The notes beneath the pieces are model-generated. The model had not been told where the DNA came from and searched no databases. It saw nothing but the letters and a program-made list of their open reading frames with translations. From assembly GCA_034638255.1 (NCBI GenBank), contig JAWPGT010000009.1, positions 930,001 through 994,000 on the forward strand: a DNA stretch of 64,000 bases, read 5' to 3'. Positions 1,280-53,058 of the stretch are shown here, in pieces (positions within the stretch are counted from its first letter, which is position 1; the number at the start of each line of letters is the position of its first letter). The position numbers and the translations under genes were made by a program. The DNA is from Coprinus comatus (Eukaryota > Basidiomycota > Agaricomycetes > Agaricales > Agaricaceae).

Positions 1280-2870
1280 CTATTCTACCGTTACATGGTT
1301 ACCATTTCCAGAGATGTGAAGAGAACGTCCGAGGTTAGTATAATTAAAATGTCCTCCATGTGATATGATTTGTGGTCTGTCTATTGAGTAGTAATGGTAA
1401 TAATAATTTCCAGTTAGACTTCGTTCTCATTCATGATACTCAATGTTATCGGTGTACTCACTTGGTGAAAAAGTAAAGCCATTCGATCCAGGGAAGGATC
1501 CTGGCCCTGCTCCTCGTCTTCGATGATTGGGAAATCGGGGACCATGATGATATGGATCATTATTATGATTTAAACCAGGTGAGGGATTCGGACTTGCGGT
1601 AAATGGTTCGGGAGAGCGTGTTGCTTGTGAAAGCGGACCCGGCGAACTATTCAATGGTGCTTGGGGGGCGTTGGTGCATGGCGCTTCGGGAATATTTGTG
1701 GATTGTGTTTGGGTATATTCGCGGGTGCATTAGTAGCACTCGCAGTAGATGGGGTTTGGCTGGTAGAATTCGTTTGAGTTGGCACACTAATGGATGGTAT
1801 TTCGGGAATAGGAATGTTGGTGAGTGGAACATCGGAACTGGGTTGAGAAGGTGATTTTGAGGTGGCTCTGGCGAACTCGTCACTGAATTCGGGAGCCAAA
1901 TAAATTGAGTTGATGGGGGAGCGGATGGTTGTGGGAGCGGGCTAAGCAATATAAACTGAGTTGATAATGGAGAGGATTCTTGCGAGGGCGGTGAGCTAGT
2001 CGATGGTGCTTGGGAAACATTGACACCAGTGGATACTGGAGGGGGAACAGAGTCAGTCGAAGGTACTGGGAGAATATCAGTCGATGATAGAGTATTAGTC
2101 GATGGTATTCGGGGTTTGGAAACATTAGTCGATAGTGTGGGCGGAGATGGCTCATCGACATCGTGAATGGGCGTGGTCTTCAAAATGTCACTCTTCTTTG
2201 GCGTCTTGGACAACTCGATATCAGATTGTAGCTATAATACCGACACTTAGTGAGCTGAAGTGCTACAGACATTTGCATGTGGTAGACATACCCCGAAGAG
2301 ATTCCTAGCATGTTGTAATAAAACATTACAATCGGCAATAATATTTTTGTCTGCATTGTAGTAGAAACCTCGCTTGTACAACGGACGCTTCACATATTTC
2401 TTGACTCCCCGTTTAATCTTCTTCAAACAGCTACGAGGAAGGTATACAATCAAACTCAAAGTGAATGATGTTTTGATGAGAAGACGCACTCTAATAGCTC
2501 CTTAGCACTCTCCAATGAAAAGGCTTCAGTGGTATTGTTTGGATCCCTCTCCTTATCCTTCTCTACGACAGCCGCTACAATGATAGAAATATCCGTTCCA
2601 ATACCAACCAGAGCCTTTTTATTGCGTTTTGTGGTCTATGAAAAGGTGAGAACCACATGAATACAAATCCAATAAGCTTACATCAATAATTTCAACGATT
2701 TTGCAAGCCACACCTACTGCCAAAGAAAGCCAGGCAGCAGATGGGCTGATGATTTTCCCATATCCTTTCAAATTATCCAAAGGTTGCATTGTTGCAGTAC
2801 CTATGAAACTTTCTTGAGTATGGCTCGTGCTTGAGGATCTGTGTTGATGCTGGCCTGCATCAGCTTTCAT
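1280..2870 (-). CDS. MLKL-NTD/HeLo-like helical protein with C-terminal RHIM-like motif (paralogue A)
   Basis: Five exons: 2870-2682, 2635-2490, 2430-2292, 2231-1462 and 1380-1280. Exons 1-3 encode a helical domain: a hydrophobic helix (AAWLSLAVGVACKIVEII), a segment starting TTKRNKKALVGIG, then a Lys-rich helix starting CLKKIKRGVKKY and ending HARNLFG. Exon 4 is a long Pro/Ser/Thr-rich linker. Exon 5 ends the protein with SLHISGNGNHVTVE, the RHIM-like motif shared with other loci here. The linker is open in three successive frames, switching at about 1900 and 1720. Each switch needs one missing base, and total exon length becomes a multiple of three only if two bases are restored, so these are probably sequence errors. 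Domain assignment is by pattern resemblance to the fungal MLKL_NTD-like (cd21037-type) domain. Predicted role: amyloid-triggered membrane or cell-death effector (inference). Confidence 0.7.
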
Positions 2871-3838
2871 GGCAGAGAGATTGATATACTAATGTCAAAG
2901 AAATAGTATCCGTTGGAGGCTGGGGTTGTTTGTGGTCTGTAGCAACAGGCTTGGCCCCGTGTCTTTGTCTTTTGTGTTAAATCATTGGGTATTCCCGATG
3001 ACATGGGCGTCTGAGCATTGCCTTGTTCCTCTGATGGCGAACGGTTAGCATGCGTGGGAAGCTGCAGTGCCAACTGTCGCAAGGTATGGATCATAGAGAA
3101 AGCTAGCCCGAAGCTGGCGCCTTGTTCGATGCGGTTCGAGCAAATCCTACATTGCACAGAGCTGGCACGGGGTCTGGTCGAAAGATATCAGACCAATGGA
3201 TAAGGATGCGTGGTACCCAATAAATTGATCGACTAATTATGGGAGGGTGTTCTAATTTTATTGCGGGCTGTGCTTCCGGTTTAGTGTACATAGCAGAGTC
3301 ACAGCACTGGAGTATAACACTACGAAGACCCAGCCAGGACCCTGCGTAGACCATGAGTCATAGGACCTCAAGTGGGAACTAGTAAGGGCAACAGTGAGAT
3401 TTGTTTTGTTAAGGGTCTCATCATTTGCATACATACTTACATACTTACAGGTGGAACGAAAAGGACCCAGATCAGAAAAAAGTTCATATCGGCGAAATTG
3501 AACCTACACCAAGCTTCGATTTTTATTTACCACGCAACCAACAAATATCGATATCGACACTTACTGGAAAGTCTCTTGCTCGGCTTTTTTATTACAATGA
3601 ACTTGTGCCATTTGTTAAATGTTTATTGTCTCTCTTTTTCGCCCTTTTTGTTTTATATATCAACTTTTATTTGTCAAATGGTCATACTCCGCATGTTCTC
3701 CTTCCGTTTCTATGAAGATTAATAATAATTAGTAGATCATCCTTAATCTAACTTATCAATTGTCTCTCTATCTCTTACTGACAACAGTTATTATCCCGCA
3801 GCAGTAAACATATATAACACCCCCCTTCGTAAAAGCCA
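2871..3838. other. Intergenic, no gene recognised
   Basis: Several 60-116 codon ORFs exist on both strands but none shows a domain, a plausible splice chain or conservation that I recognise. The right end holds a TATA-like element just upstream of the ORF at 3893. Confidence 0.5.
3811..3817 (+). promoter_or_regulatory. TATA-like element TATATAA
   Basis: TATATAA lies 28 bp upstream of the ATG at 3839 and 82 bp upstream of the ATG at 3893. If used, transcription would begin around 3840, which favours the second ATG (3893) as the translation start. Confidence 0.4.
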
Positions 3839-3892
3839 ATGTCACTCACTCACTCACTCACACACACACTCTCTGCAAGCACCACAAGCATT

Positions 3893-4390
3893 ATGTCAAC
3901 CATTCAACAGGGAGTTGAAGACTCAGATAGAATTATGCTTGATGATAAAATCCACTATGCCTCTTTGGCGTCTTTGATACATCAACTCAATCTCAATTCT
4001 ATCGCTTCGGAATCAATGCCATGGCACTCACTCAATATTATTCCTGAGCAATCCATACCCATCTCGACAAAATCTGCAGAGCCTTCAAAAGAAACATACG
4101 AGAAGGAAACAGACCCAACAAGGATAGAGAAACTCCGCACTGTTTATGAGAAACATGCACGTATTCTGACCAGGGAACTGAAGATAAAGTTCTGTGAGGC
4201 TGAAATAAAACTACGTCAGGGTAACTTGGGCGATAGAGAGATGGAGTGGGAGATGGCATGCTTGAAAAGGGGATTCATAAGGCTAAATGATGTTGCGCTG
4301 GAAACTTTTAAGAAGAAATGCGTAGTTATGTACAACTCGGAACCTGGGCCTTACAACTCGGAACCTGGGCCTTGCACTTGTTCTCCGTGA
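3893..4390 (+). CDS. Hypothetical protein, charged C-terminal half
   Basis: Single-exon ORF of 165 codons from ATG 3893; an upstream in-frame ATG at 3839 would add 18 residues encoded by a TCAC/CA microsatellite, so I prefer 3893. The first half is unremarkable. Residues from about 70 (KETYEKETDPTRIEKLRTVY) are rich in Glu, Lys and Arg and look helical. The tail carries the heptapeptide YNSEPGP twice, from an exact 21-nt tandem duplication at 4331-4372. No known domain is recognised. It lies between helical-domain paralogues A and B, but I see neither their domain nor the RHIM-like motif in it. It may be a lineage-specific gene or a chance ORF. Confidence 0.4.
   Translation: MSTIQQGVEDSDRIMLDDKIHYASLASLIHQLNLNSIASESMPWHSLNIIPEQSIPISTKSAEPSKETYEKETDPTRIEKLRTVYEKHARILTRELKIKFCEAEIKLRQGNLGDREMEWEMACLKRGFIRLNDVALETFKKKCVVMYNSEPGPYNSEPGPCTCSP
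4331..4372 (+). repeat. 21-nt tandem duplication inside an ORF
   Basis: The 21-nt unit beginning TACAACTCGG and ending CTGGGCCT occurs twice without gaps at 4331-4351 and 4352-4372. It is in frame and encodes YNSEPGP twice. Confidence 0.9.
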
Positions 4391-5035
4391 AAAGGTTAAT
4401 TCTGCGAAGTACAAAAATTCTTTTTTTCAAATCGAATGTCAATGTCTTTGTAACTTTTGTAGAAACATCATCATCCACATTTACTGCACACGACCTTGTC
4501 CTCATTGGTATCACATGTATATAAAGACGCGTTTCAACCTACAGATACGTAGTGATTATTTCCTGAGACGTTAAGCAAGCGACGCTTGCGGAAGGTCACT
4601 TCTTAAGATTTAAATGCATGTAAAGATACTCGTAGAGTTAATGACCACATAGCATGATCTCAAAAATTATGCAGCAAGAGCACTTGGTAAATCAATACTA
4701 GTACTCAGTGGAAGTCATTATCCTTAGGGGACAATTCTGAGGTGAAAAAAAAGGAATAGCATTTACTGAACCAATCTACACCCTTTGAGTGTCACAAAAA
4801 GCATCCATTCCGACGTCCGTGACCCCTGAGTGACTATTGCGTAACGTTAACCCCCTAACAACCGCCCAGACCGTGTGACGGCAAGCGTCACGCCGAAGGG
4901 GCGTGAGTTCACGTTACGATGATGACTAATCGTTGAGCCAAAGTTTTACCAAAACTTCATCAACTCATTCCTCGTAACAGTTGACTTTCAAAGGAGGATG
5001 AATGTACATCAGATACTAAGAAAAAGTTTGAAAAA
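4391..5035. other. Intergenic, no gene recognised
   Basis: No supported gene. A weak 6-bp stem (GTGACG/CGTCAC) lies at 4875-4891 in a locally GC-rich patch. Confidence 0.5.
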
Positions 5036-6012: not shown

Positions 6013-7134
6013 ATGGCTAAATCAAGTCAGTATCAACATGACCTTGAGGTTGGCCTTGAGCATGCAATGTCCGGGTACTCAAGAGAACTTTCATAGATAC
6101 AGCTTTTGAGGCAACCACAAAATCTTTTGAAGTTTTGAAAGATTGCGGAGATGCTCTTGGAGGCGTTGTTCCTGGGCTTTCCGCAGCTGCTGGTCTAGCA
6201 CTTAAGATTATGGAATGCATCGAGGTGAGTTTGGATAGTAAATTTGTAACTCGAACTGGTTCTCATGTACCTCTGATTATAGACCACAAAGAATAACAAA
6301 GCCGAGTTCATTGCTATTGGGAAAAAATCCTGCGAAATTGTGGAGGATGTGATAGAACGAGTGAGAGATCCGAATGGTGCCTATGAATCCACCTCATTGC
6401 AAGAGGATGCTTTGGAACTACAAAGGTGCATTTCAAAATCACTGTGTTATTCTATTTTGAGTCTAATTGCACCCTTACAGATGTCTAAAAAATATCAAAG
6501 CTAGAGTGAAGAAGTACGCAAAACGCCCATGGTACAAAAGATTCATCCACTCTTCGGCAGACAAAATTGTCATTACAGAATGTAATGAAGAGTTAGACCA
6601 TGCTATGAAAATTTTTGGAGTACGTCTCATCGATCAAGTCTCTTTGTCTGTATAACGTATTCATGATACATACACAGTTACGTTCTCATATTGAGCAGCG
6701 CAAGGATATACGTCAAATCAAAGATCTCTTAAAACAATTTTCTAATCTGACACTCTTCCCATCACAACCACCTATCGCGTTCCCAACACCATCAACAACT
6801 CCGATCGTACCAACACCAGCACCAGCACCAGTACCAGTACCAGCACCAACTCCAATACCCCCACCATCACACCAATCCGGTAACCATAATGCTGCTATTG
6901 GCAGTGTCGGAAGTTATGCACCAACCACATCTAACTGTGAGTTGACAAAACGTTTACTCTTTTACGAGAAATGAATGAATGATTCTAACTGGAATTCTTA
7001 TTCTAGATCATGCGGATGTGATAGCATTGGACAACGCGCGGGTTATCAGCCATAATAACTCACAGAATATTGCTGCATCAGGAAACAATTCACACTTCGA
7101 TTTCTCAAATATGAGACAAAACCGTGGGTATTAG
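6013..7134 (+). CDS. MLKL-NTD/HeLo-like helical protein with RHIM-like motif (paralogue B)
   Basis: Six exons: 6013-6025, 6097-6224, 6283-6425, 6481-6619, 6678-6936 and 7007-7134, giving a continuous frame of 269 aa. Domains in order: a hydrophobic helix around GVVPGLSAAAGLALKIMECI (about residues 30-50); a segment beginning TTKNNKAEFIAIG; the Lys-rich helix CLKNIKARVKKYAKRP; an amphipathic end SHIEQRKDIRQIKDLLKQF; a Pro/Thr linker with PAPAPVPVPAP repeats; and a C-terminal bipartite motif, RVISHNNSQNIAASGNNSHF. Exon 1 is a 13-nt micro-exon whose surroundings closely match those of paralogue D. Exon 4 is exactly 139 nt, as is the equivalent exon in the other three paralogues. The helical region resembles fungal MLKL_NTD-like domains. 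Predicted role: cell-death or membrane effector gated by amyloid templating (inference). Confidence 0.75.
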
Positions 7135-8798: not shown

Positions 8799-10142
8799 AT
8801 GCATTCTGATTCCGATGTTACCGAGGAGGACTCGAGCGGATATCTCCTTGGTTCATTTACCTTTAATATCGCTGGAGTTGCAAAAGTTGCAGTCAAGACC
8901 ATGAAAATCATTCAGGTGAGTGGCTTGGTGTTGTGTCGTGTTGGTTCTCATTTTTTCATAGGGTATGAAAAATAAGAGAAAGAGTTTCACGGCTATTGGT
9001 ATCTCTGCGGGCGCGGTTGTGGCAGCTGTAATAAAGCGCGTTGAGGAAAGGGATCCGAATAATAAGGATCACACCCTTTTCTTGGAGCGCTGTGTTGAAG
9101 ATTTACAAATGTGTGTTTTTCCCCTTCAAAGTATTATCTGATTTGAGTCTCTAACTGTAGATGTGTAGTTTTTTCAAGAAGATTAAACGTCGAGTCAAGA
9201 AATGTGCGGAGCGTCCATTATCTTTGAAGAAAACCATCTACTGGCATGCGGAAGAAAAGGTCATTACCAAATGTAACGATGAAATCAAACAAGCTAGGAA
9301 GGTCTTGGTAAAGATATCTAGTAAATATCATTACCCAAATTTTCTGAGCTTCAGTTGTAGGCACGAGATGAACATATAAAGGAGTGGAAGGACTTGGAAG
9401 AAATCAAACTCTACCTCGAAAGTTTTACTAAACCAGTCGTCTTAACACCTTTGGATCGTAGTAAGAAAGTCGGACCCCCACCGGATCTTGGACTTACAAC
9501 CCCACCGCCAATGAATACACCCACAACATCATCGGCTACTAGTATCAGTTCACCCGCAACTACGACTAGCAATATTACACCCACAACAACCAATACCCCC
9601 GAAACGCCCCCGCTCGATACACACGCAGAACCACAGATCGATGGTGAAAAGATTAACAAAGCCCTGACTGGAGTGGATAAGACCCCGAACCAATCTACTA
9701 ATTCCAGTCAACCGTCAACGTCACAGGAACATCAACGAGTTAGGTCTGCGAATGTCGTGGCATCGGGGCATGGAACGGTTCACATACACGACAACTCAGA
9801 AAACGTTCATATGACTGGTAGTTCCAATCGGATTCGGTTCAGAAATCGTAATACGGAAACTAGTACACCGACAACCAGTACCACAGCCACTGTCAATGAG
9901 CCTTCACCGACACCCGGGCCATCAACGGAACAACATCCGCCTTTATATCAACCCCCTGTGAATCTGAATCACCCCGGAACGGCCCAACAGACCAGTGAGT
10001 ATCCCTCAGTTAATGAATATAGAAACGAGAATCAATCTCTCTTTTTTTAGTAATGGCATATGAGTATGGTACGATAGTTAGTGTTGACGATTCAAGCAAC
10101 TGCCAGGTATCGGGGAGTAACAATGTCATTGAACACATGTAA
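8799..10142 (+). CDS. MLKL-NTD/HeLo-like helical protein with two RHIM-like motifs (paralogue C)
   Basis: Five exons: 8799-8915, 8962-9110, 9169-9307, 9361-9994 and 10051-10142; frame intact, 376 aa. The N-terminus has a hydrophobic helix (FNIAGVAKVAVKTMKIIQ), then a segment beginning GMKNKRKSFTAIG, the Lys-rich helix FFKKIKRRVKKCAERP (encoded by the family's 139-nt exon), and DEHIKEWKDLEEIKLYLESF closing the helical domain. A long Thr/Pro/Ser linker follows. There are two motif copies: an internal one, VHIHDNSENVHMTGSSNRI, and one ending the protein, VSVDDSSNCQVSGSNNVI plus three or four residues. Two motif copies in one molecule could favour self-assembly. The MLKL_NTD-like assignment is from pattern; the cell-death role is inferred. 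Confidence 0.75.
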
Positions 10143-11033: not shown

Positions 11034-11121
11034 AGTCTAAAAATCAAAGTTGAACATAAATGTACATTAGTGATGACATCATTGATATCTGATTGCACTA
11101 TCTTCTCCCTTGTACCACATC

Positions 11122-13550: not shown

Positions 13551-14648
13551 TTAAGGAGGGGGGACAAATACAACAGTAGCGCCGTTGTTATCTTTCGTTG
13601 TAAGCTCCTGATTGATGTAACCACGGTATGCCCACTGAAAGTGAGGTGGTAAGTGTAAGTGAGAGATTGTAATGCTTAAATATATGTATGAGATGGGGAT
13701 GAGAGGGAGAGACTTACGTTGAGGTATCCTCCATCTCCTGTTTTGGTGAATTTACCACTCTTGGCCCAGTAAACTTCGTATCTGGGAAATGAAAATGAAA
13801 ATAAATTAGTACCTTATATTTTTTTTTTGTGAAAACTAAGATGATAACTCACCCAATTGTACCACCCAATTTGATATCGAATTCAACATGTTGATGACCC
13901 CATTGAACACCTTTATCACCATCGAAGAAAGTTTCATGTTTTGTATGACACATTATCCAGTTGAATTGAGGATATTTGGTTTGGAAGTTTGCGATTGTTT
14001 CTTGTGTGAATTTACTTCTTGCCTTTTTTTTAATTATGATCATTAGTACAAGGAAGAAAGAAAAAAAAAAAAGAAGGAAAGGAAAAAGTGGGACGGGGAG
14101 GGAGGACTTACCAATTTATCAGCTTCAATAGCAGATTTAATAGCATCAACTATAAACATTATAACTTCTGCAATATCACCTCCTGCACCTCCACGTCTAG
14201 CTTCTAAATCCGAATTACGATTATGTAAAACCTGTAAACCTTTCTCCGTAACCTCATTACTGTAATCTCGTGCTAATACTAAATCACGTCGATATTGTTG
14301 AATAGCTTCATCACGGACACGGACTTTGGGTTGATAGGATTTAGGTACTCGTCCATCTTTTATTGGGGTACCAGATCCAGATTTTGCTGTAGGAGGAGGA
14401 GGTGAACCTTGTTTTTGTTTTTTGTTGTCTGGTTTAGGTTTTGTTGGAGGTTTGGGTTGAGATTTTGGTGGGTTTGTAGGAGGTTTTTTGGTGGGTTTAG
14501 GAGGTGCACGAACTTGAAGTAATTCTGTAGAACCTGAAGAGGAATCGTTGTTGGGATCTAATCTTGAAGTTGGTAATGCGTAGGAAAGGGTTAGGAAGGT
14601 GAAGAGGAGGAGGGTTGTTGTACGAAGTGTTGGAGAGAAGAAGTACAT
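13551..14648 (-). CDS. Secreted Pro-rich protein with DUF7888-like domain
   Basis: Four exons: 14648-14112, 14022-13853, 13781-13718 and 13634-13551, 284 aa. Residues 1-25 form a signal peptide (TTTLLLFTFLTLSYALPTSR). A basic Pro/Lys-rich stretch follows (KPTKKPPTNPPKSQPKPPTK). The C-terminal globular part begins near GDIAEVIMFIVDAIKSAIEA and contains FQTKYPQFNWIMCHTKHE, WGHQHVEFDIKLGGTIGYE and GDGGYLNWAYRGYI. This resembles a small secreted fungal family I know as DUF7888, often seen as extracellular stress- or interaction-associated proteins; the name is from memory of the pattern. No catalytic residues are apparent. It converges tail-to-tail with the iPGM gene. Confidence 0.75.
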
Positions 14649-27534: not shown

Positions 27535-27995
27535 TGGAGTAATGAATTAACCAATCTGCTGATTTTCGCGAGTCTCATTGTTTTTCGTAATGTCGATAAA
27601 TTAACCACAATTTCAATTTCATGCTCAAAGCTTCTTTACTCTCTGCTATCTTAGCAGCGTTCATGGTTGAAGCTGCGAAAGCGATTGAAATTAATCCTAT
27701 GGAGAAGCCCGCATACCTCCTGGAAATGCTAGTTATGCTTCAACTCAGCGCGTCAACTACCAAAGCCAACGCTCAAGTTAACTTTCAGTCAGGAAAACTT
27801 GAACTTCCTGGCTTTCTCCTTATCCTCACCAAACGAGCTGTTACATCCAGTAATCTGCCCGTATCGATCTTCATAAGCGTTGGTGGCTATTTCTTCGATT
27901 CATTATCTCCTGCGATTCATACAGTATATGTTGTACTAGAAGTGCAGATGGTCCAGGAAACTTTCTCTGCCGCTTCACGGTTGGACTATTTATGA
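27535..27995 (+). pseudogene. Degenerate DUF6535 fragment
   Basis: WSNELTNLLIF at 27535 and then ASLLSAILAAFMVEAAKAIE (from about 27630) match the start of the DUF6535 domain in the gene at 47847-50098, which reads NWSSELSNLLIF and ASLFSAIVTAFTVEAAKATE at the same two positions with an intron between them. Here the expected donor reads GCGAGT instead of GTGAGT and the joining phase does not fit. Farther on, GGYFFDSLSPAIHTVYVVLE resembles the family's second membrane segment. The ORF then stops at 27995, far short of the usual length, and no downstream domain remnants were recognised. I read it as a truncated, decayed paralogue; a very short functional derivative is less likely. Confidence 0.6.
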
Positions 27996-29026: not shown

Positions 29027-30107
29027 ATGGCGGAATCAAGTCAGTATCGACAATCCTCACATATATGCACTCAAAATGAATATCATCTATCTAGGTTTTA
29101 ATGCGCGTAGTCCATTCGCTAGTCATATTGCTCAGGCGTCTGTTACGGCGCTTAAAATCATTAAGATCACAGAGGTGAGTTTATGTCGAAAAGGCTGTAT
29201 TAGGTTTGCCCTCATCCTTGTTGTAGAATGTAAATCACAATAAAGAGGTGTTCAATGCCCTTGGAGAGAAAGTCGGCTCTCTAATGGAGGTTGTCCTAAG
29301 TCGGATTAATGAGAAAGATCCGAACAATGCCACAGAGATATCTTTATTCTATACTGGTGTTAAGGAGCTGCCGGGGTGGGTTTTTGCCTTCAAATCATTT
29401 GAGTATGATTTATAAACCAGCATTACCAATAGTTTTCTAGAGAAGATCAAAAGGCAAATCAAGAAACATGCAAATCGTCCAAAATACATCAGAGCATTCT
29501 TCTTGATAGCAGGCAAAAGTGTTTTGGCAGATTGCAGCGATCAGTTGCGAAAGGCTGAGAATCGTTTCCGGGTATGTTCTCGAAATCTTAACGTCTTTAT
29601 CTTTCGAGTTCTCTGAACATCAGTACTGTAATAGGCCGACTATATTGTCGATAAGTTGACGATCAAGGAGAATAAAGTTTTCACGACAGAAGTCAAGCCA
29701 TCCCAATCAACACCGTCAGTTAATATAATCCCAACAATTAGCGCGGTACCACCATCACCTTCAATAAATGCGGTTCCGGTTCTTTCGGGTAATGTATCCC
29801 CAACGCCATCGAATGAATTAATCCTACCACCGTCGACAAATATCACTCGACCACCGTCAATGAGAGGCTCGTTTGGGGCAGGTTCTTCCCAATCATCTCA
29901 ACTTGTTCAGACACCACCAGAGGCAGCTGATATTTTTGCATTGATGCAAAGGGGTAAGTGAATACCACACGTACGGGGAGCAAAGTCTAACATTAAATTC
30001 CGTTTGTAGCGAAGACACAGTTCATCATAGGCAATGGAACAGCTACGATCATCAATGAGGGAACATCTCATAGCATCACAGGCGATGGCAACACATATTA
30101 CGCATAA
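29027..30107 (+). CDS. MLKL-NTD/HeLo-like helical protein with RHIM-like motif (paralogue D)
   Basis: Six exons: 29027-29039 (micro-exon), 29095-29174, 29227-29375, 29433-29571 (the family's 139-nt exon), 29635-29953 and 30010-30107; frame intact, 265 aa. Order: short helix FASHIAQASVTALKIIKITE; NVNHNKEVFNALGEKVG; FLEKIKRQIKKHANRPKYIR; a Pro/Ser/Thr linker (TPSVNIIPTISAVPPSPSIN); and a C-terminal segment with IIGNGTATIINEG followed by SHSITGDGNTYYA ending the protein. The domain plan and intron positions match paralogues A-C, although overall sequence identity is low. A predicted amyloid-gated effector of the same type (inference). Lengths are shorter than typical HET-S or MLKL proteins because there is no middle domain. 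Confidence 0.75.
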
Positions 30108-33031: not shown

Positions 33032-33701
33032 ATGCAAGCTTTTGAAGGCGCTCACGACTTCAACCTTCAGGGCGTTTCTTATGTCACCATTGCGGGAGAT
33101 TGCAACTTGGAATCACATTCTTTTGATGTTAATGTATGTGGAAGTAATAATAACGTGTCAATGATGGGGGAGAACAAAGCAGATTGGAAACAATGGAGTA
33201 CGTTCATATTTTCCCATTGTCTTTCCTTGATAATAATATCCGTTGTTTTCCGTAGCGAGATCTTCATCCACTGAGAGTGATGGCCATAATTCATCATTTG
33301 ACGAACCTTATGCATGCTCAAACCTCTTTCAACTTCCACCATCCTCTATAACTTTTATGCCATCAACAGCCTATTCAAGGTCATCCAGCGAGTCCATGGT
33401 GGAATCCACCAGTCACATAATTTCATCAACGGGGCCATGGAGTACGAGCTATAATGACGATACCCTTCCTATTCCATCCGCATCTCCTCAGAGGCCTCAA
33501 GTCACCACAAATCCATCTCCGATTCCTACCACTATCACTATGCGGTCTGACAACTTTCCTGCAGTTACAACAATACCTCCGATATTGAAAGGAGAAGTGG
33601 TTGTGCCGCTAGGGATGGCGGTGAAGGAAAAGAAGCGGAAGTGGTACCACGCGATGCAATTCAGTATCAGAGTATCAATATCCATTCAGAGAAAGTGTTG
33701 A
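33032..33701 (+). CDS. Small protein with tandem N-terminal RHIM-like motifs
   Basis: Two exons: 33032-33197 and 33256-33701; 203 aa, frame intact. The N-terminus reads AFEGAHDFNLQGVSYVTIAG and continues DCNLESH, then FDVNVCGSNNNVSMMGE, so two copies of the G-x-x-N core sit within the first 50 residues. The F-x-GAxxFxIxG arrangement recalls the N-terminal segment found before NACHT domains in many mushroom-fungus NLRs. The remainder is Ser/Thr/Pro-rich and disordered, ending in a basic cluster (KEKKRKWYHAMQ). No enzymatic or helical effector domain is seen, so it may act as an adaptor, decoy or detached NLR N-terminus. An additional 5' exon cannot be excluded. Confidence 0.6.
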
Positions 33702-34126
33702 CGATAGTACTACGATCATTATCTAAGTGGCTGGACTACATTTGTACCCTACCCTCATAAATTTCTACTATGATACCCAATCGTGCAGCTTGTAATTCCT
33801 ATCATCCATGTATATTTTTTTGGAGATAAAATTAGGTTTAGAGTAAACTGGAAACAGCGCTTAGATAAGCAAGGAAATTAGTGTGACCCAGTGATCGGTC
33901 TGGCATGGGCCGAGCCTGTGTCTGAAAGTATTTATTTATTATGTTTGAATGGTGAGTGGCAGTGAGAAATCATAATTGCGGAGAACAAGCGACACGGTAT
34001 TGACTTGGTCCGAGCACTGCATTATATTTATTTTTCTGAAATACTTTAGTCACTTAGGCCTCATGGTACTGATTTGGAGGTGCCGAAGTGTTACTTGTGC
34101 CACGCTCCTTTCAAGCTTCAACCACC
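33702..34126. other. Intergenic, no gene recognised
   Basis: Spacer between the motif protein and the BTB pair; nothing recognised. Confidence 0.5.
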
Positions 34127-35312
34127 ATGTTACATTCATCCTTGGACAGTAGTCTTGACCACACACCGGAATCTACCATTTCTATGACCCACGCACCCGC
34201 TCCAAGTCCCAGTTTGCCAGATAGGAGTCCAAGTCCTGCTTTGTTTTTGCCACCTCCACCCACTTACTACTCTCCTCTTCCAAGCCAACCGATTTCAGAC
34301 TGGAAACTTATAGCGGTACAACATCCTGACTTTTGGTTCCATGATGGATCTATAGTCCTCTGCGTCGACAAGACTCTATTTCGGGTCCATCAAACCATCT
34401 TGGGAAAACATTCCGAGATTTTCGATGATCTATTCAACGTTCCACAACCAACCGCGACACAGGAGGATCTGGTAGAGGGCTGTCGTGTGGTTCTATTACA
34501 TGATGCGAAAGAGGACTTTGTAGATCTTTTGAATGCTATTTACCACCCTTCGTGCGTACATTCTACCCTCTAACCGTTTTCTAGAGGCCAAATAATCCTA
34601 TAGTTATTTCGACGACTTTCATCCTCAGTCAGCGCTTGACGATGTACTCACTTTTGTGGGTGGAATTCTCAGACTCAGCACCAAGTATCTCATTCGTTCG
34701 CTCCGTCAACGATGTATCGCTCTCCTCATTTCTAAATTCCCCATTACATTTTCCGACTACCAAGCGAAATCTGCAAGAACCTCGGCTGAAAAATACAAAA
34801 CAGATTCGATTATGCGCACCATTCGTCTAGCACAAGAAACCAACGTTCCCGAAATTCTCCCTTACGCATTCTACTGTGTCGCTCGTATGAATTCGAAACG
34901 ATTACTCAAGCCAAGAGACCACGATATCTCATGGAAAGACAAGACAATCTGTGTTATTGGGAAAGAGAGATTACGTTGGGCAGAAATGAGTCTCTCACAT
35001 TCATTCCTACTCGTCTTCCAACCTGCACCAACATGTACTTCATATATATGTTCCGAAGCAAGATCACCACATGCAGAATGGCATGTCATTGACGCTTCTA
35101 AATCCCCTAACCCTCTACGATTATATTCGGGCTGGAATCGGCTGAACGTGTGCAGTACGTGCATAGCGCATTGTCAGGGTCTTCATCAGAAAGGTCGTGA
35201 GGAAGTGTGGCAGAGGTTACCATCGTTTTTTGAGATGGGGACTTGGGAGAGTTTAAGGAAAACACAGAATATGGCGGATAGTGGAGCAGATGAAAGGAGG
35301 CGAAGCGGTTAA
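34127..35312 (+). CDS. BTB/POZ domain protein 1 of a tandem pair
   Basis: Two exons: 34127-34551 and 34604-35312, 377 aa; the start is the ATG in the ACCACC context. A Pro/Ser-rich leader of about 60 residues precedes a BTB domain with HPDFWFHDGSIVLCVDKTLF, then RVHQTILGKHSEIFDDLF and LLNAIYHPS. The C-terminal half continues GGILRLSTKYLIRSLRQRC and ends with a Cys-containing region (LNVCSTCIAHCQGLHQKGRE) and a FFEMGTWESL terminus. BTB domains mediate dimerisation and often bind Cullin-3; the role of this fungal subfamily is unknown. The intron lies at the same place as in the neighbour at 35501, supporting tandem duplication. Confidence 0.85.
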
Positions 35313-35500
35313 TTTGTTTCTTTTAAAAAACAATTTTCCAATTGTTTACTTTTAATAACCCATCAAATGCCCTGAGCGTCCTGATGGCGGACGGACCAGG
35401 GACAGGGTCGGACCGTGGAAATGTTACCTTAATGATATTCGCTTAGCCTAGCTTAGCCTCCTATGTATTTACACCCTTGTCGTTATACTTACCTACTACC

Positions 35501-36533
35501 ATGTCGTCTAACAATCTTAATGATGTGGACTCCCATCAAGAACGACTACTTATCAGACATTCACACTTTTACTTTGAAGATGGTTCTATAATTCTGATCG
35601 TTCAACAAACGCAATTCAAAATCCACAAGTCTGTGCTCGGTCGGCAATCTGACGTATTCAAGTCGATGTTTTCGTTACAACAACCAGAAGACACGGTGTC
35701 TTCTCTCACAGTTGATGGTTGCGACTATGTTATTCTGGAGGGTGATTCTTCTGCTGATATGGAGAGCGTCTTACAAACGCTTTATGACCCTTTGTGCGTC
35801 TTTTTCTCATATTTTTTTCCTCTCCATTCTAAATCAATTCACAACCACAACATTCATAATGTTATATAGTCACTTTGACAACATCAAAGGCGACAAAGAT
35901 CTTCAAACCGTACTTAACTTCCTATCAGGTATACTCCGAATCAGTACCAAATACGACATGCAACACATTCGTAAAAAATGTATCTCCATCCTCCTAGAAC
36001 GTTTCCCAACAACTCTCCAAGATTGTGATCGTGTTCTCGGTTCCCACTATCGTTATAAACCAGAATACATCTCACACGCAATTCAAATAGGTCACGAAAC
36101 AAACGTTCATTCAATATTACCTTGGGCATACTACATTTGTGCTCATGTTGGCATTGATGATCTTATGCAAGACTCAATATTAACTTGGAGAGATAAAGCA
36201 CTTTGTTTAGCTGGAAGAGAAAAGTTATGGGAAGCTCAAAAAACTATGACTCATTGTTTTTTGTTTAATATTCTACGTTCGGAAGGTTGTACGGGGTCAT
36301 GTTCGGCTAGATCTCCACAAACTATGACTTGGAAAGATGTGGAAGGGTTGAGGAAACCGCCTCATCCGTTGGACATTTATACGGCTTGGGCGAATTTGGG
36401 GCTTTGTTCGGTTTGTAGGGTTCATGTTGAAACTCATCATCGTGGTGGGAGAGAAAGGCTTTGGGAACAGTTACCTGCGATTTTTGGTTTGGGAACGTGG
36501 AAGGAACTATTATCTGAAGCGGAAGATGTGTAG
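35501..36533 (+). CDS. BTB/POZ domain protein 2 of a tandem pair
   Basis: Two exons: 35501-35793 and 35870-36533, 318 aa. Starts MSSNNLNDVDSHQERLL, lacking the Pro-rich leader of its neighbour. BTB core: HFYFEDGSIILIVQQTQF, KIHKSVLGRQSDVFKSMF, LQTLYDP. The C-terminal region has GILRISTKYDMQHIRKKC, then LGLCSVCRVHVETHHRGGRE and IFGLGTWKEL, matching the first BTB protein motif for motif. It begins only 188 bp after the first gene's stop. Function beyond BTB dimerisation is not known. Confidence 0.85.
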
Positions 36534-40341: not shown

Positions 40342-41262
40342 GGGTGAGTTGGATGGGGGATGAGAGAGATTAAGATTCATTCGTTGTTATGTTCGTAATA
40401 TCGTATCATCTATGTGAGTGTGTAGCTAGCAAATTTAGTGTAAATCATTAAAAAGTCTAAGTTGAATGTCGATTGAAATGTTTTGCGTACACTACATCAC
40501 CGGTACCTGCCACCGACTACATTATGCGAGGAGGCATTGGCAGGGTTTTATGCAAATTTAGATTGTCTCTACTTAGTGTGTATACTTAACACAAGCATGA
40601 CATTTATCTCTAACCATATAGGGAGATACCTACCATCCATGGTAAAGGGACCACGATATTAATTACTTAATACGCGTTGCTTAAGTACGCTTAAATACTC
40701 CATTTTCATCCTCGAATAATTAATTGTTGAATTTCTCGGCATATTCCGTCGCTGAGGGCTAGTATGCGTGACACACCTTTCTTGACACCCACGGTCATTG
40801 CATGCCAAGTACTGTATCCCGTGTAACCCGAATGTATATAATGCATCGCTCTTCTGGCAAATGCCGATATCAAAGATTAGGTGTCCGAATTGTCGTTCGA
40901 AAGCAAGCACCTGCGCAAGATGCCAATTTTCCCTTTGCAACTTTTGTCTGGCAATCGTGGAGGTAAGGCTAGGAATAAGGCCAATGGTAAGTATTAAGGG
41001 TTACTACAGTTGCTAGTGACTAGTCTGCTTTATTGATTACTTGGCTAGCCTTACTCCAGATTTCAAAGGTCGTTCAGGAACCGGACAAGGAGGCGCGCGA
41101 CGGTGATATCAAAGACACTATCTTCGGAAGAGGTCAGTGTTTGTATACATATCTTTATATAATGACTGACCTGCAACCTCAACTACGGACACAAGTCTCC
41201 TGCTCTAGTGAAGGCAATGGACGGCATGGCCAGGGCTGGGATACACAATCCCCTCGTGCGTC
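40342..41262. other. Intergenic with a possible CxxC exon at 40798-40966
   Basis: Upstream of the NACHT gene. The open stretch 40798-40966 encodes YCIPC, RCPNCRSKASTCARC and LCNFC, eight cysteines in four CxxC pairs that would suit a zinc-binding module, followed by a good donor (GTAAGG). No ATG starts it and no clean splice to the NACHT gene was found, so it may be an exon of an unresolved 5' end or a remnant. Confidence 0.35.
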
Positions 41263-43910
41263 ATGCTTCTCATGTTATCTAACATACGGATTGGAAATAA
41301 ACAACCTGGAACTGTACTTGTAGGACCGACGGCTCCACTATCTCCCCAGCGACACAGTCAATTTTCAAGGCCTTTGATAGCACCCAACAGTCCCGACGAT
41401 GACTCGAACAATGTCACGTTGCAACACATATACTTTTCCCCAGGGTCAACTTCAAATACTACAGTCGCCAATGTTACGACTAAGATAGAAGGAAACCATA
41501 ATCAAGTCCATATTGTACGCGCCAATCCAATAGACATTGACCAGAGAAGTAAGTCCATACCTGCTCTTTGTATGTTGCAAGTAGAAGATTGACATTAGCG
41601 CAGCACTCGAACTCTTTTCTCGACATGCTAATCCAGAGGCGGAACTTCATTCAGGAACTCGATACCCTCCTCCTAGATGTCATCCAAAAACTCGTGAAAC
41701 GATAATAACGAAAGTGAAGAATTGGATGATTGATAGTGAAAGAGAGAAACAGGTGTTTTGGTTGTATGGTCCAGCTGGTGTTGGAAAGTCTGCCATTGCA
41801 CAAACACTTTCGGAAGAGGCTAAGAATATGAAGATTCTTGGTGGTGTTTTCTTCTTCTCAAGGCCTAATAATCGGAATGATCCGAATACGGTATTTCCAA
41901 CAATTGCACGACAGTTGGCGGTAGAGTGGGAAGGATATCAAAGGGAGGTTGGAAAGATTTTGAGTAAGAATCCTTTTCTCCTTGCGTCCCATTTCAAGGT
42001 GCAGCTTGAGAAAATTATTATTGAACCGCTTCGCCGATCTTCGATGAAGAAACAGGTTGTTATTGTACTGGATGGGCTAGATGAATGCAACGGAGAGGAA
42101 AATCAAGTGGATATGCTGGAACACATTGTTCAACTAATCAAAGGCGCTGAAGGTCAAGCTCCTCTTCCATTACTATGGATGATATTCAGTAGACCCGAGG
42201 ATCATTTGAAGTATCTTATTGAAAGGGAGGATGTCATGGATATCTGTTGGACTGAAATGTTATCGGTTGATTCAAAGGAAGCTGAAGATGACTCGGCCCG
42301 CTATATTCGTGCAGAGTTTCAGAGGATACAAAGAAAATATTCAAAAGCCGTGGATAACGATTGGCCTGGAGAGGAGAGACTTGAGAAAGTTATTAAAGCA
42401 TCGTCGGGGCTCTTTGCGTGCTCTTCTGCAATTTTCAGGTTCATTGACGATACGAAGCGATGTAATCCTGAAGCCCAGTTGGAGATTGTTCTGGACGTTC
42501 TCGATGGTTCGAGCGGCTGTCACCAAGCCAGAAATCCACTAGAATTGCTCGATGATCTTTACATCAGGATTCTTGAAGAGGTCCCTGAAGATATTCTGGA
42601 CGTTTCTCTGATGATACTACACTCCTGGTTATGGTTTCAAAGTCATGGAAGGGTAGTTCACGTACAACATCTTGCAAATCTCCTAGGTTTGAGTCGAGCA
42701 AGTTTCTATGGAGCTATGGGAAAACTTCACTCTGTGCTTGATATTCCTATTCCACAAAAAGCCCACTATCGTAGCCTCTCCACTTTTCATACTTCATTCT
42801 CTGATTTTCTCATTGATCCTGCACGTTCAAAACAATTCACAATTGATTTTGAACAGACGGTGATACCTACACTTCGCAAGAGGTCGATTCGTATCTGGAA
42901 CTCTGATATATATGCCTGGGCGACCTCGTATAACAAAGACCACTGTTTCACCTCACCATCTCTGAATTACGTGCCTTGGCCATATCCTAATCCAGGAAGT
43001 GAGTAATTTTGATGGTTGTTTCTTTCGTGATACTGACCAAAGTGTTGTGTGGTCACAAAGGTTTTCCTTATAATCATTTATTTCTTCTCCATATTGCTCT
43101 CCATGCCTTCGTTCACCTTGCCATTGATGAAGACTTGCGAGAATTAAATTGCAATAATCTTGCATTGCGTGAAGGATTCTTGTCTCCAAATATATATTGT
43201 TCGGTGCGTTGATTGAGATTCGTTGGACATTTCCAATGCTCATTAATGAGATGCAACAGATAACAAGATTTCTAGAACTAGTTCGCGTATTTGATCCAGA
43301 GTGTCAATATGATCGAAAGCTCCTTCGATTGATAGAAGTACATTTTGCAATGAAATGTCACAAGGTCTCAGTTACAGTAGCTGAATCTCCGAAAAGTAAT
43401 ACTATCCTTATATACATGTGTCGATTAAAGCTTATTATGACAATAAGGAGAATCCAGAGAAGAATGGGAAAAAAGGGTATCTTTTCCTCAAACACTTCCT
43501 ATGGTAAAGCCAACTTTTCTTCGTTCCAGTTGCATACCTATGAAGGCTTACTCCAAATATTAATAGGATCCCGAACATATCGGAGTACAGGGGTAGGTCC
43601 TTACTCTTTCAACAAACATTATTCGGTTTCTCACTTAACTTGTAGCGCATATGTATTCATGGGGTATGGACCCAATGCGATACTTGCTATCCTTAAACCA
43701 TACGAAGATGCAAGAAGTTGCTATCCTCTACATGTTATTACCCAAAACTCAGTTTTAGATTCATCTTGGGACATTCATCCGGTATGTAATTTTGAATTGA
43801 ATAACATGTTGACTCGTGTATTAATAAAAGCTGGTATCTGTAGCGTGTTAACTTTTACATTCGACAACCTGAAATTGAGTCATGATCGGATCCATGATTA
43901 TTACTGGTGA
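41263..43910 (+). CDS. NACHT NLR-like NTPase with RHIM-like motif before the NTPase
   Basis: Four exons: 41263-41548, 41604-42998, 43061-43203 and 43260-43910, 824 aa, frame intact. Residues 1-95 are Ser/Thr/Asn-rich with TTKIEGNHNQVHIV, the G-x-x-N motif also found in the helical-domain genes. Then the linker RYPPPRCHPKTRE typical of mushroom-fungus NACHT proteins; Walker A GPAGVGKSAIAQ (about residue 145); Walker B VVIVLDGLDEC; sensor LLWMIFSRPED; and a winged-helix region with STFHTSFSDFLID. The last roughly 260 residues contain no WD40, ankyrin or TPR repeats that I can recognise, unlike most fungal NLRs. Such proteins sense non-self and activate effectors. The 5' end is uncertain, since an upstream CxxC exon is possible. 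Confidence 0.8.
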
Positions 43911-47846: not shown

Positions 47847-50098
47847 CTAGCTACCAGCACCTACTAAACACTCTCGCCTTTCCCATATTTCTTTCAATTT
47901 GATGTTGAATTTATCAGCCACATCCCATACTAATTTCAAATCGTCGTGAAGATAATCAGAATGAGGTTCGGTATGTGGGATAAAGAATTGACTTGGATGT
48001 AATACAGAATTTGTTGACGTTGAGAGTAGTACATGTTCTTCAGCTGCAGAGAGTAAGGCAATCAATGTGGTTTCGATAGAAGGAAGTATACGATGTAACC
48101 CCGAAGAACGTTGGATGATATATGTGGTGTGAGAAAGAACGTCATCTAGTGCGTGATCTTTTGCTATGAGACGTTCGGAGGCAAGGTGGGTAATAATTTT
48201 GAGGTATTCTTCAGCCCGCCCTGTATAATGGGTAAAAGGGATACTTTAAAATTAGATTCAGGCGTATGATATTTGAGGGGAATACGAACAATGAGAAACA
48301 AAACATGTGGGACATCGGAAAAGTAATGAACGAAGCGCATTTCCAAGATTTCTTGAGTTTATTGAGCCTCGTCCAGCGCGAAATACTCCATTGAATATAA
48401 TAAGTAATTCCTTACATCGATGTTCCGAAGTGAGTTTTGCGCGGAGTTGGGTGCAAAGGCTTCGTATGTGAGAGTAAATCAGGCGATCACTCTGATAACG
48501 TTTGCACATTTCTTTCAAAATAGGAACTGTCCCATTACAATTCCATGAATCTTGCTGAATAACATGGCCAGCAGCAGCGACTGCAATTCCTTCTGTTATC
48601 CACGTATTCTCTGGACGAGATAACGCGTTCCCGATGGACTGAAACAAATCTGGTAGATAAATGGAATGTAAGTCAGAGCTGAGAGAAACGGTACAGTGGT
48701 GATTGCACAATTACCTGCACGATCAGCCTCTGATGCTTTTTGCACACGCAAAATCTGGTAGATATCATTAGAAGCTTCAGCTTCAACTCTCAACCCTTTG
48801 TCCGTTACAACACCCCATATACTCGCAAATGCACCTAAATATGCGTTCCAGACCAACATGGCTTATTGGATATAAATTCGTTCTCAAACCGAGAGAGAGT
48901 AGAAAATCCAAATACACTCCACGCGGTCGATTCTGGAACGGTTTCACCATGTGGAAGTGTCTTGAGATATTTACAGTATGTATCTGCAATTGAGGATATA
49001 AGGCATTGATATACCAGTAGGACTGCATCTTTGCTTTGGTTGAATTCGGAAGCAACCCAAAATAATGCCGGATAGATCGATTTTTCAGTGCTGTGCTTTT
49101 CTATCCACCACTTGTCATATGCAGTCCAGCCGTCATTTTGTTAAACGGCATCAAACGAACAGGATTGAATTTGTTGGATGAAATGTATTGTATGATGCGA
49201 AGGAGATAATGAAGAAATGAAAGAGCAAGCCAGGCCTGTGGAGATCTGTACGGGCAAAGAACTGGGTGTGGGGGAGAATCAGAGCTGGGTTCACGGGTTT
49301 CGTAGTTCGTAAGCCAGATAACTTGTAATGCTGGTAGGAAGGAAGTAACCAAGATAAAAAGAACCGCCATTCCCACGAGAAGTGATACAGGTTTTGCAGC
49401 CAGAGCTCCAGATTGCCATTGAGACGTCAGAAACCCAGCAAAGAAGAGGAATAGGGAAATAAGGAGAAGGATTGGCAATGTGTTGAGGAGCGTAAGGACT
49501 CTCCAATGTTTCAGGCTTTCGTGTCGTTGATACTGAACATATATGTCAGTACTATATGATACTCCAGTGATGTTTTGGTTGAACTCTCGAAGCCATTGTA
49601 ATGAAGTAATCCCTCCAAGGACCGAGATGAGGCTGAGTGCAAGGCTAACTGAGTAGAGGAGATAAATTTCTTGAGCATGTGAGGGGATTGTCACAGAATT
49701 ATTATAGGTGAGATTATCATGGAAGTTAGCCTGGGGATTTGATATGTTGTTGACCTGGAGTATCAAAGTTCGGAGTAACAGTACAGTCTCTGCCGCAGGA
49801 TCGGCCTCAGTAGCTTTTGCAGCTTCAACAGTGAACGCTGTGACAATGGCAGAGAATAAGGAAGCCTAAGGGTTCAAGAACAAAATTATTCAATATCTTG
49901 TCAAGGACGAAACAGACCAAACCTACAAAAATAAGCAAATTGCTCAACTCGCTGCTCCAATTTCCACATACACTGTTCGTAGTTTCTCCACTCTATTATT
50001 AACAGTTTCCCAAGGCTCGCATTTGTCCGGAGAGCCCTAGTTATCATTCAGGTTTGCTGCCGCTCAAAGAAATTGAAGATATGTACCAGAGCTGCCAT
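47847..50098 (-). CDS. DUF6535 membrane protein with several apparent frameshifts
   Basis: Likely exons: 50098-50087 (tentative), 50036-49927, 49865-48715, 48649-48286 and 48220-47847. Family blocks in order: CEPWETVNNRVEKL; NWSSELSNLLIFASLFSAIV; the AFTVEAAKA block; membrane segments YLLYSVSLALSLISVLGGIT, LNTLPILLLISLFLFFAGFL and PVSLLVGMAVLFILVTSFLP; YRSPQAWLALSF; AYDKWWIEKHSTEKSIYPAL; then a helical C-terminal half. The frame breaks near 49971, 49132, 48859 and 48356. The first three need one added base each and the last needs two added (or one removed); with those corrections the length is a multiple of three. It belongs to an Agaricomycete-specific family of unknown function. Either a recent pseudogene or assembly indels; similar lesions in housekeeping genes favour the latter. 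Confidence 0.75.
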
Positions 50099-52128
50099 AT
50101 GTGTTATTCAGGCCTTCAGGGTTTATTTAATCGTTTGAAAATGAAGCTTGCAGTGGCGGATAGTAGTTTATATCCACTTCTTTAAGGTTCCAAGTCTAAA
50201 GAGGGATACTGTTGGTCGGAAGATGGTGAGAAAAGCGGAGACGTGTCGAACGAGATGGATTTTCGTGTCACACCATCTTTGCTATATATAGCTACAAGTC
50301 GAGCGCCTACTTATAATACCTATCAGAGTTGTATGTTTAGATGCATATAATGTCATAGTATGTCATATGTAACAACTCAGATGTGACATAACACCCGCCC
50401 GGACCCGAGATCAGGGTGATCTCGGGTACATAACAACGATTTATTATTGAAAGTTGGATACATCAGACATCCCGTAGGATTTAGAAATGCAAATATTGTC
50501 CTCAAACGATTGTTCTGTATTCCATATATAGTTACTTTGATTTTACATAACAAAATATACTTACCCATTTCTAAACTCTAATCTAGAAGAGGCCTCGTCG
50601 CCCCATTTCTAAATGTTTTTTGTGTCAAAAGCCATCCTCAAACTTTAAATCACCGAGCGATCAGCGAGGTTTCCCTCGGATTTCCACTAGCAAAATCTCT
50701 GCTCTATCATGGGATTTTCTCACGATTCCTAGCGCTTAGAATGCGCAAAACCTATCACGTTTCTTGCTATATTAGTATATTTGTATAACATTTTGTGCCA
50801 ATCATATACACGAACAACATAACCTAGCAGAAGGATACTCAGTTGATGAAAGCGAATAACAACTGAGTATCCTTCTGCTAGGTCAATATCTTCTTACCAT
50901 GTGCATTTTCGTCATCTTTACCTTTCCTCCCGAACGACTCAACATTTGGGTTGCGCGTGTGTTCTCTGTACAACTATAACAAACTATGTGTTTAAGGCGT
51001 CACACTAGAAACTTTCCTTAGTTCGTTGTTACAAAACTACACAGTGTCAGTACTATTTGTGACAATGGGTTGATAAAGTACCTAAATTTGTCATAGAGTT
51101 GATAAAGCTATATTATCTCTTTTATTCATGGGTTATTTCCCTTGAAATCCGGGACAGTAATAGAGGAAAAGGTAGACAGTATATCTGCAAATTTTTGTAG
51201 AGTTTGGATTAGTATGAGCTTTTCAATACCATGATTGTTGGACAAGATTTGCATCAAAATCACAATTTTCACCTAATATAGTCGATTTATCACAGGTACT
51301 CACCACATTTTACAGATAAAATTATGGTATTCTGATAGTACCTCCATTCAGCTATGTAAACCTTCCTTTATTCATTGACCGGTAGGTGTCTACAGGTAAC
51401 CATTAGGCGAATTCCATGAACGTGACATGAGCTGAGGAAGGACTCACCAATGAATTCAAACTCCGATGATCTCTTGCCATTACCATCATTTGTGTTCCTT
51501 GTTGGAGTTCAGAATTTTCGTGACTGTTTCACGTCACAGGTTTATCACTCCTTGATTTTGGCACTTTTTGCACCAGTAGGTCTGTGGCAGTATTGTGCTA
51601 ATTACGAACTTGAAGACTTTTAGAGGGTTGTCTAGTATACGGATACGACTACTCGTAAGCAAGTTCCGAACCTCTAATACACAAAAATGATAGAGAAATC
51701 CTTCTTTTACAAAACCTTTATCAACTCTATGACAACAATAGTATATGTCTACGTTATATTCTCACTACTCACTCTCATTTTACATCTTGGAGCTAAAAGA
51801 GTTTGTTCTACGGAGGCCGTAGGAGCTTGGGTGTAGGGAGAAGAATTTCGGAAGTCATTTCGGCATCGCGGATTCGAGCGTGAATTCAATCTTAGAGCCG
51901 AATAGGTGTGTAGGTAGAATACAAGTACACAAGAAAGGGTGTTAAGCACACAAATGAACACTGAGCAACCAAATAGAAGTACATGTACATGATGAATGGT
52001 AATACTGGGACAAGTGTTCAAGAGAAAAAGAAGAAGAATCAGAGCACAGTTCAGGATTCAAGAGTCCAGTTCGTCGCCCCTCACCACCTAACACGCTACC
52101 CCGATGATGTCCAACAATTCCTACAGGT
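50099..52128. other. Long intergenic region with a 24-bp inverted repeat
   Basis: About 2 kb without a supported gene. Contains the perfect hairpin at 50822-50883 (listed separately). ORFs near 51749-52157 overlap the 3' side of the next gene and show no domain. Confidence 0.5.
50822..50883. repeat. Perfect 24-bp inverted repeat, 14-nt loop
   Basis: Arms 50822-50845 and 50860-50883 are exact reverse complements, separated by ATGAAAGCGAATAA. No flanking target-site duplication or transposase is evident. It could be a MITE remnant, a small-RNA hairpin or a recombination scar; nothing in the sequence decides between them. Confidence 0.9.
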
Positions 52129-53058
52129 TTAGTCCTTAGAAAAGGCATGTTTACCATCCTTCAACTCATTCTTCGAACGTTTGCCTTGTGTCTTCGATTT
52201 ACTAAACCACCTCCTTATACTTGATCGTTTAGAAAAAGTCGTGGAAGAATCCGAAGAAGAACTTGAGGACGATGATGAAAGTGAAAGTGTTGAACTAGAA
52301 GGATGCCCTTTTCCCTTTGAAACTGGAGTCAAATATGCAGATGTCGAACCAGAACTTTCGGAGATGGAATATGCAGGAGGAGCTTCCTCATCGGCGCATG
52401 GGATAACATTGACATCAGGTACAGTAGAATCTAAGATCAATTAGTGTTGAATAGTACTCATGAGAACGCTGAGGTTGAGAGAAATAATTCATACGCGTTT
52501 GTTGACTTGGCTGGGTAATCGTATGAGCTATGATGCGACCAGTTGCTGCATCATAAGGATGTATGGCGTTGCTCTTTACAATGGTACAAATTCCGGGTCC
52601 GGATGTGATAACGTTATGGTCTAAAAAGAACAAAAATAAGTCAGAAAAAAATTCGTTAGAACTATGTTACAGTTAAGAGAAAGTTACATACTGTGATCAA
52701 CGACTCCACTTCCGGTAGCTATGATAGAAACATTATTAAATCAGCTTCTACGTTGTGACTTGCTAGCTACCGCCAAAGACGTTTGATAGACTCCCTTCAT
52801 AGCTATGATAGACCCATTATAAATCGAGCGAATAGAACTAAGTTGTGACTTACCACCAGTACCACTACTAATTGATATATTGTTAAAGACATTTCGTCGA
52901 ATGGTAACATTTCCTTCGCCACTAATGTTAACGGTATTTCTCGTGGTTGTAATCTTCATTTTTCCTTTCCTCTTCCGACCTTTTTCTTTTTTACCTAGGG
53001 GTTCATAGAAAGCTTCAAAAGGATCCATAGATGAATAATTGACGTCTGTCCCATGCAT
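52129..53058 (-). CDS. Small protein with repeated RHIM-like motifs and a basic Ser-rich tail
   Basis: Four exons: 53058-52854, 52719-52693 (27 nt), 52620-52495 and 52430-52129; 219 aa, frame intact. The N-terminus has a basic patch (KKEKGRKRKGKMKITTTR) leading into NTVNISGEGNVTI, the clearest copy of the motif, then NVFNNISISSGTG and NVITSGPGICTIV, so three motif-like units lie in tandem. A PPxY sequence (APPAYSI) follows, then Ser-rich sequence and a basic tail (SSIRRWFSKSKTQGKRSKNE). No helical effector or NTPase domain is present. The 134-nt first intron contains sequence similar to the exons on either side, suggesting internal duplication. Possible scaffold, regulator or decoy for the motif network (inference). 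Confidence 0.6.

Follow-up and report, generated by a model that had tools for sequence, protein, structure and literature searches.

Genes at the locus

The window, the whole stretch of 64,000 nucleotides of Coprinus comatus DNA that was analysed, spans C9:930001-994000, on a contig that ends at position 997,528. It carries four MLKL_N-like genes (A to D), a gene encoding a NACHT-type NLR (F), and genes for two further proteins (E and G), along with the GxxN motifs, one of them diverged, that directed attention to this locus. The models of A to D were obtained with a purpose-written gene finder and manual splicing. The features, in window positions, are listed below.

1280..2789, minus strand: MLKL_N-like gene A, from gene finder and frame reading (helical-domain exons 2292-2789, linker frames 2231-1462, last exon 1380-1280)
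1292-1318, minus strand: motif HISGNGNHV in the last exon of A
6013..7134, plus strand: MLKL_N-like gene B, gene model of 267 aa in 6 exons (last exon 7007-7134)
7069-7098, plus strand: motif IAASGNNSHF, diverged, in the last exon of B
8799..10142, plus strand: MLKL_N-like gene C, gene model of 376 aa in 5 exons (last exon 10051-10142)
10104-10130, plus strand: motif QVSGSNNVI in the last exon of C
29076..30107, plus strand: MLKL_N-like gene D, gene model of 267 aa in 5 exons (last exon 30010-30107)
30072-30098, plus strand: motif SITGDGNTY in the last exon of D
33032..33659, plus strand: protein E, splicing read by eye (short N-terminal stretch with two GxxN-like copies, then a Ser/Thr-rich region)
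33086-33109 and 33131-33157, plus strand: motifs TIAGDCNL and NVCGSNNNV in protein E
40920..43212, plus strand: NACHT NLR F (motif exon 41350-41548, NACHT 41753-42199; 3' end of the model uncertain)
41482-41508, plus strand: motif KIEGNHNQV in NLR F
52129..53058, minus strand: protein G, low-score gene model (N-terminal motif, Asn/Ser/Gly-rich beta-like stretch, disordered tail)
52903-52929, minus strand: motif NISGEGNVT in protein G

A to D are paralogs with homologous helical domains and one architecture, in which an MLKL_N-like helical domain and a linker rich in Pro, Ser and Thr precede a last exon that is separate and ends in the motif. They belong by sequence to the MLKL N-terminal family. 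In a Pfam search B matched PF22215 (MLKL_N) past the cut-off of 27 (41.1 bits, E=1.6e-10), D (E=0.0044) and A (E=0.0097) matched under the cut-off, and C, with no PF22215 match of its own, aligned with A, B and D. When the PDB was searched with a sequence profile of A to D, the matches were to designed coiled coils and casein-like chains (E of at least 0.24), and neither MLKL nor HeLo chains were among them. No relatives of A to D were found in the protein collection, a weak negative result since the candidates were picked by shared words. In a word-limited genome search with the B domain, all eight matches at E<=0.05 were exons of A to D, and PF22215 gave one match over the whole genome, exon splitting limiting this search. 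The best reading of these searches is that the closest effectors for the motif-sharing NLRs described below are detected at this locus only.

The gene models of B, C and D are open in frame from the helical domain through the last exon, and the stop follows the motif string after 11, 3 and 2 residues, respectively (3 in A). In A both the exons of the helical domain and the last exon could be recognised clearly, but gene modelling gave no continuous linker frame; A is possibly a pseudogene, or contains introns missed by the model. The broken linker frame of A would fit a scenario in which A to D descend from fused MLKL-motif-NACHT receptors and are now in decay, their tail being an inherited linker, and a BaMLKL-motif-NACHT fusion has been published for Fibularhizoctonia (PMC9815663, available text). 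However, the frames of B, C and D are unbroken and reach a stop soon after the motif, the NACHT matches to F include no exon downstream of these three genes, and a fused MLKL_N was present in none of the NACHT gene models on the C9 stretch. We regard such an origin as highly improbable.

Several other genes were noted. Two more distant MLKL-like paralogs (C9:895241-896262 and 897396-898199, both on the minus strand) lie 32-35 kb ahead of the window; the word-limited search had missed this pair, which was recovered through gene modelling. The first is 28% identical to B over 116 aa (E=2e-12) and ends in FHAASIADGAKVQITHIKGNQHITN, which matches neither NLR motif class; a genome search with it returned the pair and one weak place on another contig. 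Within the window we observed a gene with a signal-peptide-like start and a DUF7888 match slightly under the cut-off (13551-14648, minus strand), a tandem pair of BTB/POZ genes (34073-36533, plus strand), a DUF6535 open frame (49104-49865, minus strand) with a short open frame of similar look (27600-27992, plus strand), and a kinase-like gene with a weak Kdo/WaaP match (54261-55988, minus strand).

Receptors with two classes of N-terminal motif

NLR F gave Pfam matches to NPHP3_N/NACHT with E-values of 6.6e-24 and 8e-9, and the motif exon precedes this domain, confirming the preliminary description of a NACHT NTPase with the motif ahead of the NTPase. The genome (35.7 Mb, 134 contigs) contains 53 matches to NACHT (PF05729) in a Pfam search. 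The named NLR relatives are from Agaricaceae such as Leucocoprinus, Macrolepiota and Agaricus, with 33-43% identity among the 120 listed of 575 matches.

We surveyed the stretches upstream of 34 NLRs, 33 of them outside the window, comprising 738 open pieces. Two motif classes were distinguished, class 1 (GxxN) at a threshold of at least 25 bits and class 2 (F..AhdF.h.NPtMvSNN) at one of at least 50 bits. Among the 33 outside stretches, class 1 was found in 13, eight of which were seeds of the profile, and class 2 in 16. Four (C42, C20, C9:853 and C9:757) had neither, and none had both. Three further class-1 profile matches lie directly upstream of NACHTs, two on C55 and one on C109. In gene models of other NLRs the sequence before the NACHT follows approximately T-x-x-h-x-D-x-S-x-H-x-x-[IV]-x-G-x-x-N-x-h, and in four outside NLRs as well as in F the motif G stands 62-70 residues ahead of the NACHT match. 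The class-1 NLRs are mostly the nearest NACHT relatives of F: the NACHTs of 14 are 45-55% identical to that of F, with two exceptions at 38% and 34%, against 35-41% for class 2. The second NACHT gene on the contig (C9:838729-841216, plus strand) carries an N-terminal NVSGNNNTVV, yet its NACHT is 34% identical to that of F.

Among Agaricaceae NLRs class 2 is common, 20 of the 120 listed scoring at least 10 bits; no class-1 motif was detected in these 120 (best score 1.5 bits). Class 2 is more likely than class 1 to be a member of the published NLR05/08/22/29/44 motif family. A weak class-2 match with no listed NACHT nearby (C52:117421-117510, plus strand, E=0.06) is a candidate class-2 effector.

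The GxxN motif as a pattern

The preliminary description had placed a RHIM-like motif with the core [IVM]-x-G-x-x-N-x-hydrophobic at seven loci. All eight strings that it quoted are present, but that of B reads G-N-N-S and falls outside this core. Gene C contains in addition an internal copy, HMTGSSNRI, in exon 4 (9361-9994), which had not been described. Whether the motif is commoner than in shuffled sequence depends on the form taken. The bare core occurs 15 times in the window against a mean of 11.2 and a maximum of 18 in 50 shuffles, and is thus not enriched, whereas a stricter form occurs 9 times against 2.8 (maximum 6). Near a stop, the stricter form was found 4 times against 0.82 (maximum 4); three of these copies belong to A, C and D, in the last exon of each. 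Over the 120 kb upstream of the window the counts were 12 against 19.7 for the bare core and 3 against 5.2 for the stricter one.

The relation to RHIM was not supported. RHIM and PP motifs have a common core, G-(I,V)-Q-(I,V)-G (PMC7885112, available text). This G-phi-Q-phi-G core was present in none of the 14 motif copies, and a hydrophobic residue immediately ahead of GxxN in only one. The exact RHIM pattern was absent from the window and from the ORFs of the 120 kb upstream, Pfam gave no RHIM or HET-s family match, and the PDB search returned no such chains. On account of the absent core and the lack of Pfam or PDB matches, membership of the GxxN motif in the RHIM/PP family was rejected.

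A motif common to receptor N-termini and MLKL_N-like C-termini

The tails of the MLKL_N-like proteins were compared with the NLR motif by means of profiles whose seeds were aligned by eye on GxxN. With a profile from four outside NLRs, the last exon of C ranked first of 2,099 window ORFs at 12.3 bits (maximum of 20 shuffles, 9.5). It again ranked first with a profile from eight outside NLRs (14.0 bits; maximum of 50 shuffles, 12.1), ahead of A (9.1 bits, rank 2) and F (8.4, rank 3), with E at 5.3 and D at 5.1 (rank 8). C alone exceeded the shuffle maxima, A, D, E and F being within their range. When pairwise scores against the N-termini of outside NLRs were examined, the score was reached by 0 (C), 1 (D), 2 (A) and 62 (B) of 1000 shuffles. 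For the internal copy of C against the NLR motif, as for the motif of F against other class-1 NLRs, none of 1000 shuffles reached the score.

As the MLKL copies had first been chosen by the GxxN pattern, the test was also made with G and N masked. The numbers became 0 for C, 22 for A, 30 for D and 361 for B per 1000; the tail of B alone is thus not significant. We also ranked 56 gene C-termini against the class-1 motif. The controls came from the purpose-written gene finder, with models scoring below 2 omitted, and the four last exons were placed by hand. The last exons of A to D took ranks 1-4, and with G and N masked ranks 1, 2, 4 and 5. In a control with the class-2 motif they still held ranks 2, 3, 6 and 13, indicating that composition contributes to this ranking.

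The reverse comparison was made with a profile of the MLKL copies. The best 11 of the 738 pieces were all class-1 motif exons, the top three scoring above 50 shuffles (maximum 11.7). A piece at C109:19 stood at rank 15, and those of C130 and of NLR F itself were outside the best 20.

These data bear on a sceptical explanation, namely that the tails are convergent, Asn/Ser/Gly-rich and disordered, have no functional pairing with receptors, and are neighbours of F by accident in an NLR-rich region. Such an accident is favoured by the unenriched bare core, the non-significance of B and the non-random class-2 control ranks; with 53 NACHT matches in the genome, moreover, one NLR nearby is only mildly unlikely. 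On the other hand, convergence is rejected by composition-preserving shuffles in three of the four genes (A, C and D), and in C this holds after masking of G and N as well; the reciprocal MLKL profile picks class-1 NLR exons only. We judge convergence to be improbable. As far as can be told from sequence, the pairing of receptor N-termini with effector C-termini exceeds chance, strongly so for C and fairly for A and D, and not significantly for B. The reciprocal profiles and shuffles thereby support the original proposal that MLKL/HeLo-type helical proteins and NACHT receptors have a terminal motif in common.

The exon structure on the two sides was also compared. The intron before the last exon is in phase 1 in B, C and D, as given by exon lengths, and by reading in A. 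Among seven NLRs tried, one had no model and one had a model skipping part of the motif; in each of the five models with a complete motif, a phase-1 intron separated it from the NACHT. The intron ahead of the motif was in phase 1 in three of these five, in phase 0 in one and absent in one. It is possible that the motif has been shared by way of a movable phase-1 exon.

Proteins E and G

The genes for E and G occur once each in the genome, and Pfam recognises no domain in either protein. They had been proposed to be motif-only adaptors or decoys. Support for this role is weak: E matches the class-1 NLR motif (0 of 1000 shuffles reached the score), G does so marginally (23 of 1000), and it is doubtful that G belongs to the motif set. 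The start of E (AFEGAHDFNLQG) also resembles the class-2 motif, for which it is the best of the 2,099 window ORFs. Its score of 7.6 bits is within the range of the shuffles, which reach 13.6, and a class-2 motif in E was not accepted.

Discussion

Our results suggest that the locus groups four MLKL-like proteins, candidate agents of cell death, with one NACHT receptor carrying the same motif, a motif of its own kind that may work like known amyloid switches. The architecture first proposed for this DNA was largely correct; the motif family to which it was assigned was not.

Known systems provide a framework. In the HET-S/NWD2, HELLF/FNT1 and HELLP/PNT1 signalosomes of Podospora anserina, the receptor and effector genes are linked, and, as here, a receptor with an N-terminal motif and a NACHT or NB-ARC domain is accompanied by a separate HeLo/HELL effector, related to the MLKL four-helix bundle, with the same motif at its C-terminus (PMC7885112 and PMC7889193, available text). 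The present locus differs in that its motif has no PP/RHIM core, the host is a basidiomycete, and several effectors accompany one linked NLR without being its immediate neighbours. In the mammalian necrosome (RIPK1/RIPK3 RHIM, MLKL) an amyloid motif likewise acts upstream of an MLKL four-helix executioner; here there is neither a RHIM core nor a kinase step, and the motif is fused to the executioner itself.

In agaricomycetes, Wojciechowski et al. (2022) described amyloid-like motifs in NLRs and C-terminal BaMLKL partners in two species, the motif pairs of BaMLKL C-terminus and NLR N-terminus coming from Moniliophthora roreri and Fibularhizoctonia (PMC9815663, available text). As in our case, the BaMLKL-type effectors described in the available text share their motif with many NLRs per genome and are fewer than the receptors. 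The GxxN motif may be identical with one of the motifs in PMC9815663 (NLR05/08/22/29/44 and NLR20), for example NLR20. The same text states that 'virtually none' of the NLR-effector pairs co-localised, the shortest NLR-HeLo distance being 95 kb, in Sphaerobolus. By contrast, the gap here between the end of D (30107) and the start of the NLR F model (40920) is approximately 10.8 kb. The D-F pair thus falls within the 20 kb neighbour criterion of PMC9815663, as given in its available text, whereas A to C are farther than 20 kb from F, which lies at least 31 kb from C with other genes in between. By simple arithmetic with 17 class-1 NLRs and 35.7 Mb, the chance of one class-1 NLR this near is about 2%, so that linkage by itself is weak support. 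The earlier suggestion that no equivalent cluster was known in Basidiomycota needs qualification, since NLR motifs and BaMLKL partners had been published in 2022, but holds in so far as those, in the available text of PMC9815663, were not co-localised. In the open-access literature searched, no further account of a comparable basidiomycete cluster came up.

We consider it probable that the locus represents the effector side, together with one receptor, of an NLR-controlled, amyloid-type MLKL death pathway with a beta-arch-like GxxN motif. By analogy with NWD2/HET-S and PNT1/HELLP, a NACHT receptor, either F or one of the receptors with the same motif elsewhere in the genome, would be activated by a biological trigger and oligomerise. 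Oligomerisation would bring the N-terminal motifs together into a beta-arch, amyloid-like template, onto which the matching C-terminal motif of A to D would be converted. The freed four-helix domain would then insert into membranes, and the resulting damage would lead to cell death.

The motif could instead be a true homologous module with a conventional or beta-helical fold, at which NLR and MLKL dock with no amyloid templating. The observed motif sharing is compatible with docking, and the absence of a RHIM/PP core and of RHIM or HET-s matches in Pfam and the PDB is in its favour. However, stretches of approximately 25 residues, rich in N, G, S and T and of strand-turn-strand-like appearance, at the N-terminus of the NLR and the C-terminus of the effector resemble known fungal amyloid motifs (PMC9815663, available text), and we find plain docking unlikely.

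Within the preferred amyloid-type pathway, a more far-reaching version can be put forward tentatively, with the odds somewhat against it. The GxxN motif would constitute a new amyloid family, neither RHIM/PP nor the common agaricomycete NLR motif, that links clustered MLKL-type executioners to a dispersed NACHT clade. The cluster would then act as a hub on which 17 or more receptors converge; another receptor clade would be kept apart by a motif of its own, and a dual-motif E could connect the two channels. Among NLR-effector amyloid clusters of basidiomycetes, it would be the first to have a pair within 20 kb.

Amyloid signalling from receptor to executioner is well studied in ascomycetes; its inference in basidiomycetes has so far lacked linked gene pairs. 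The present locus combines, in a small space, several MLKL-type proteins with a linked NLR and with a motif common to many NLRs. It supplies short peptides for fibril and cross-seeding work, and the two motif classes within one genome offer a natural case for how signalling specificity is maintained.
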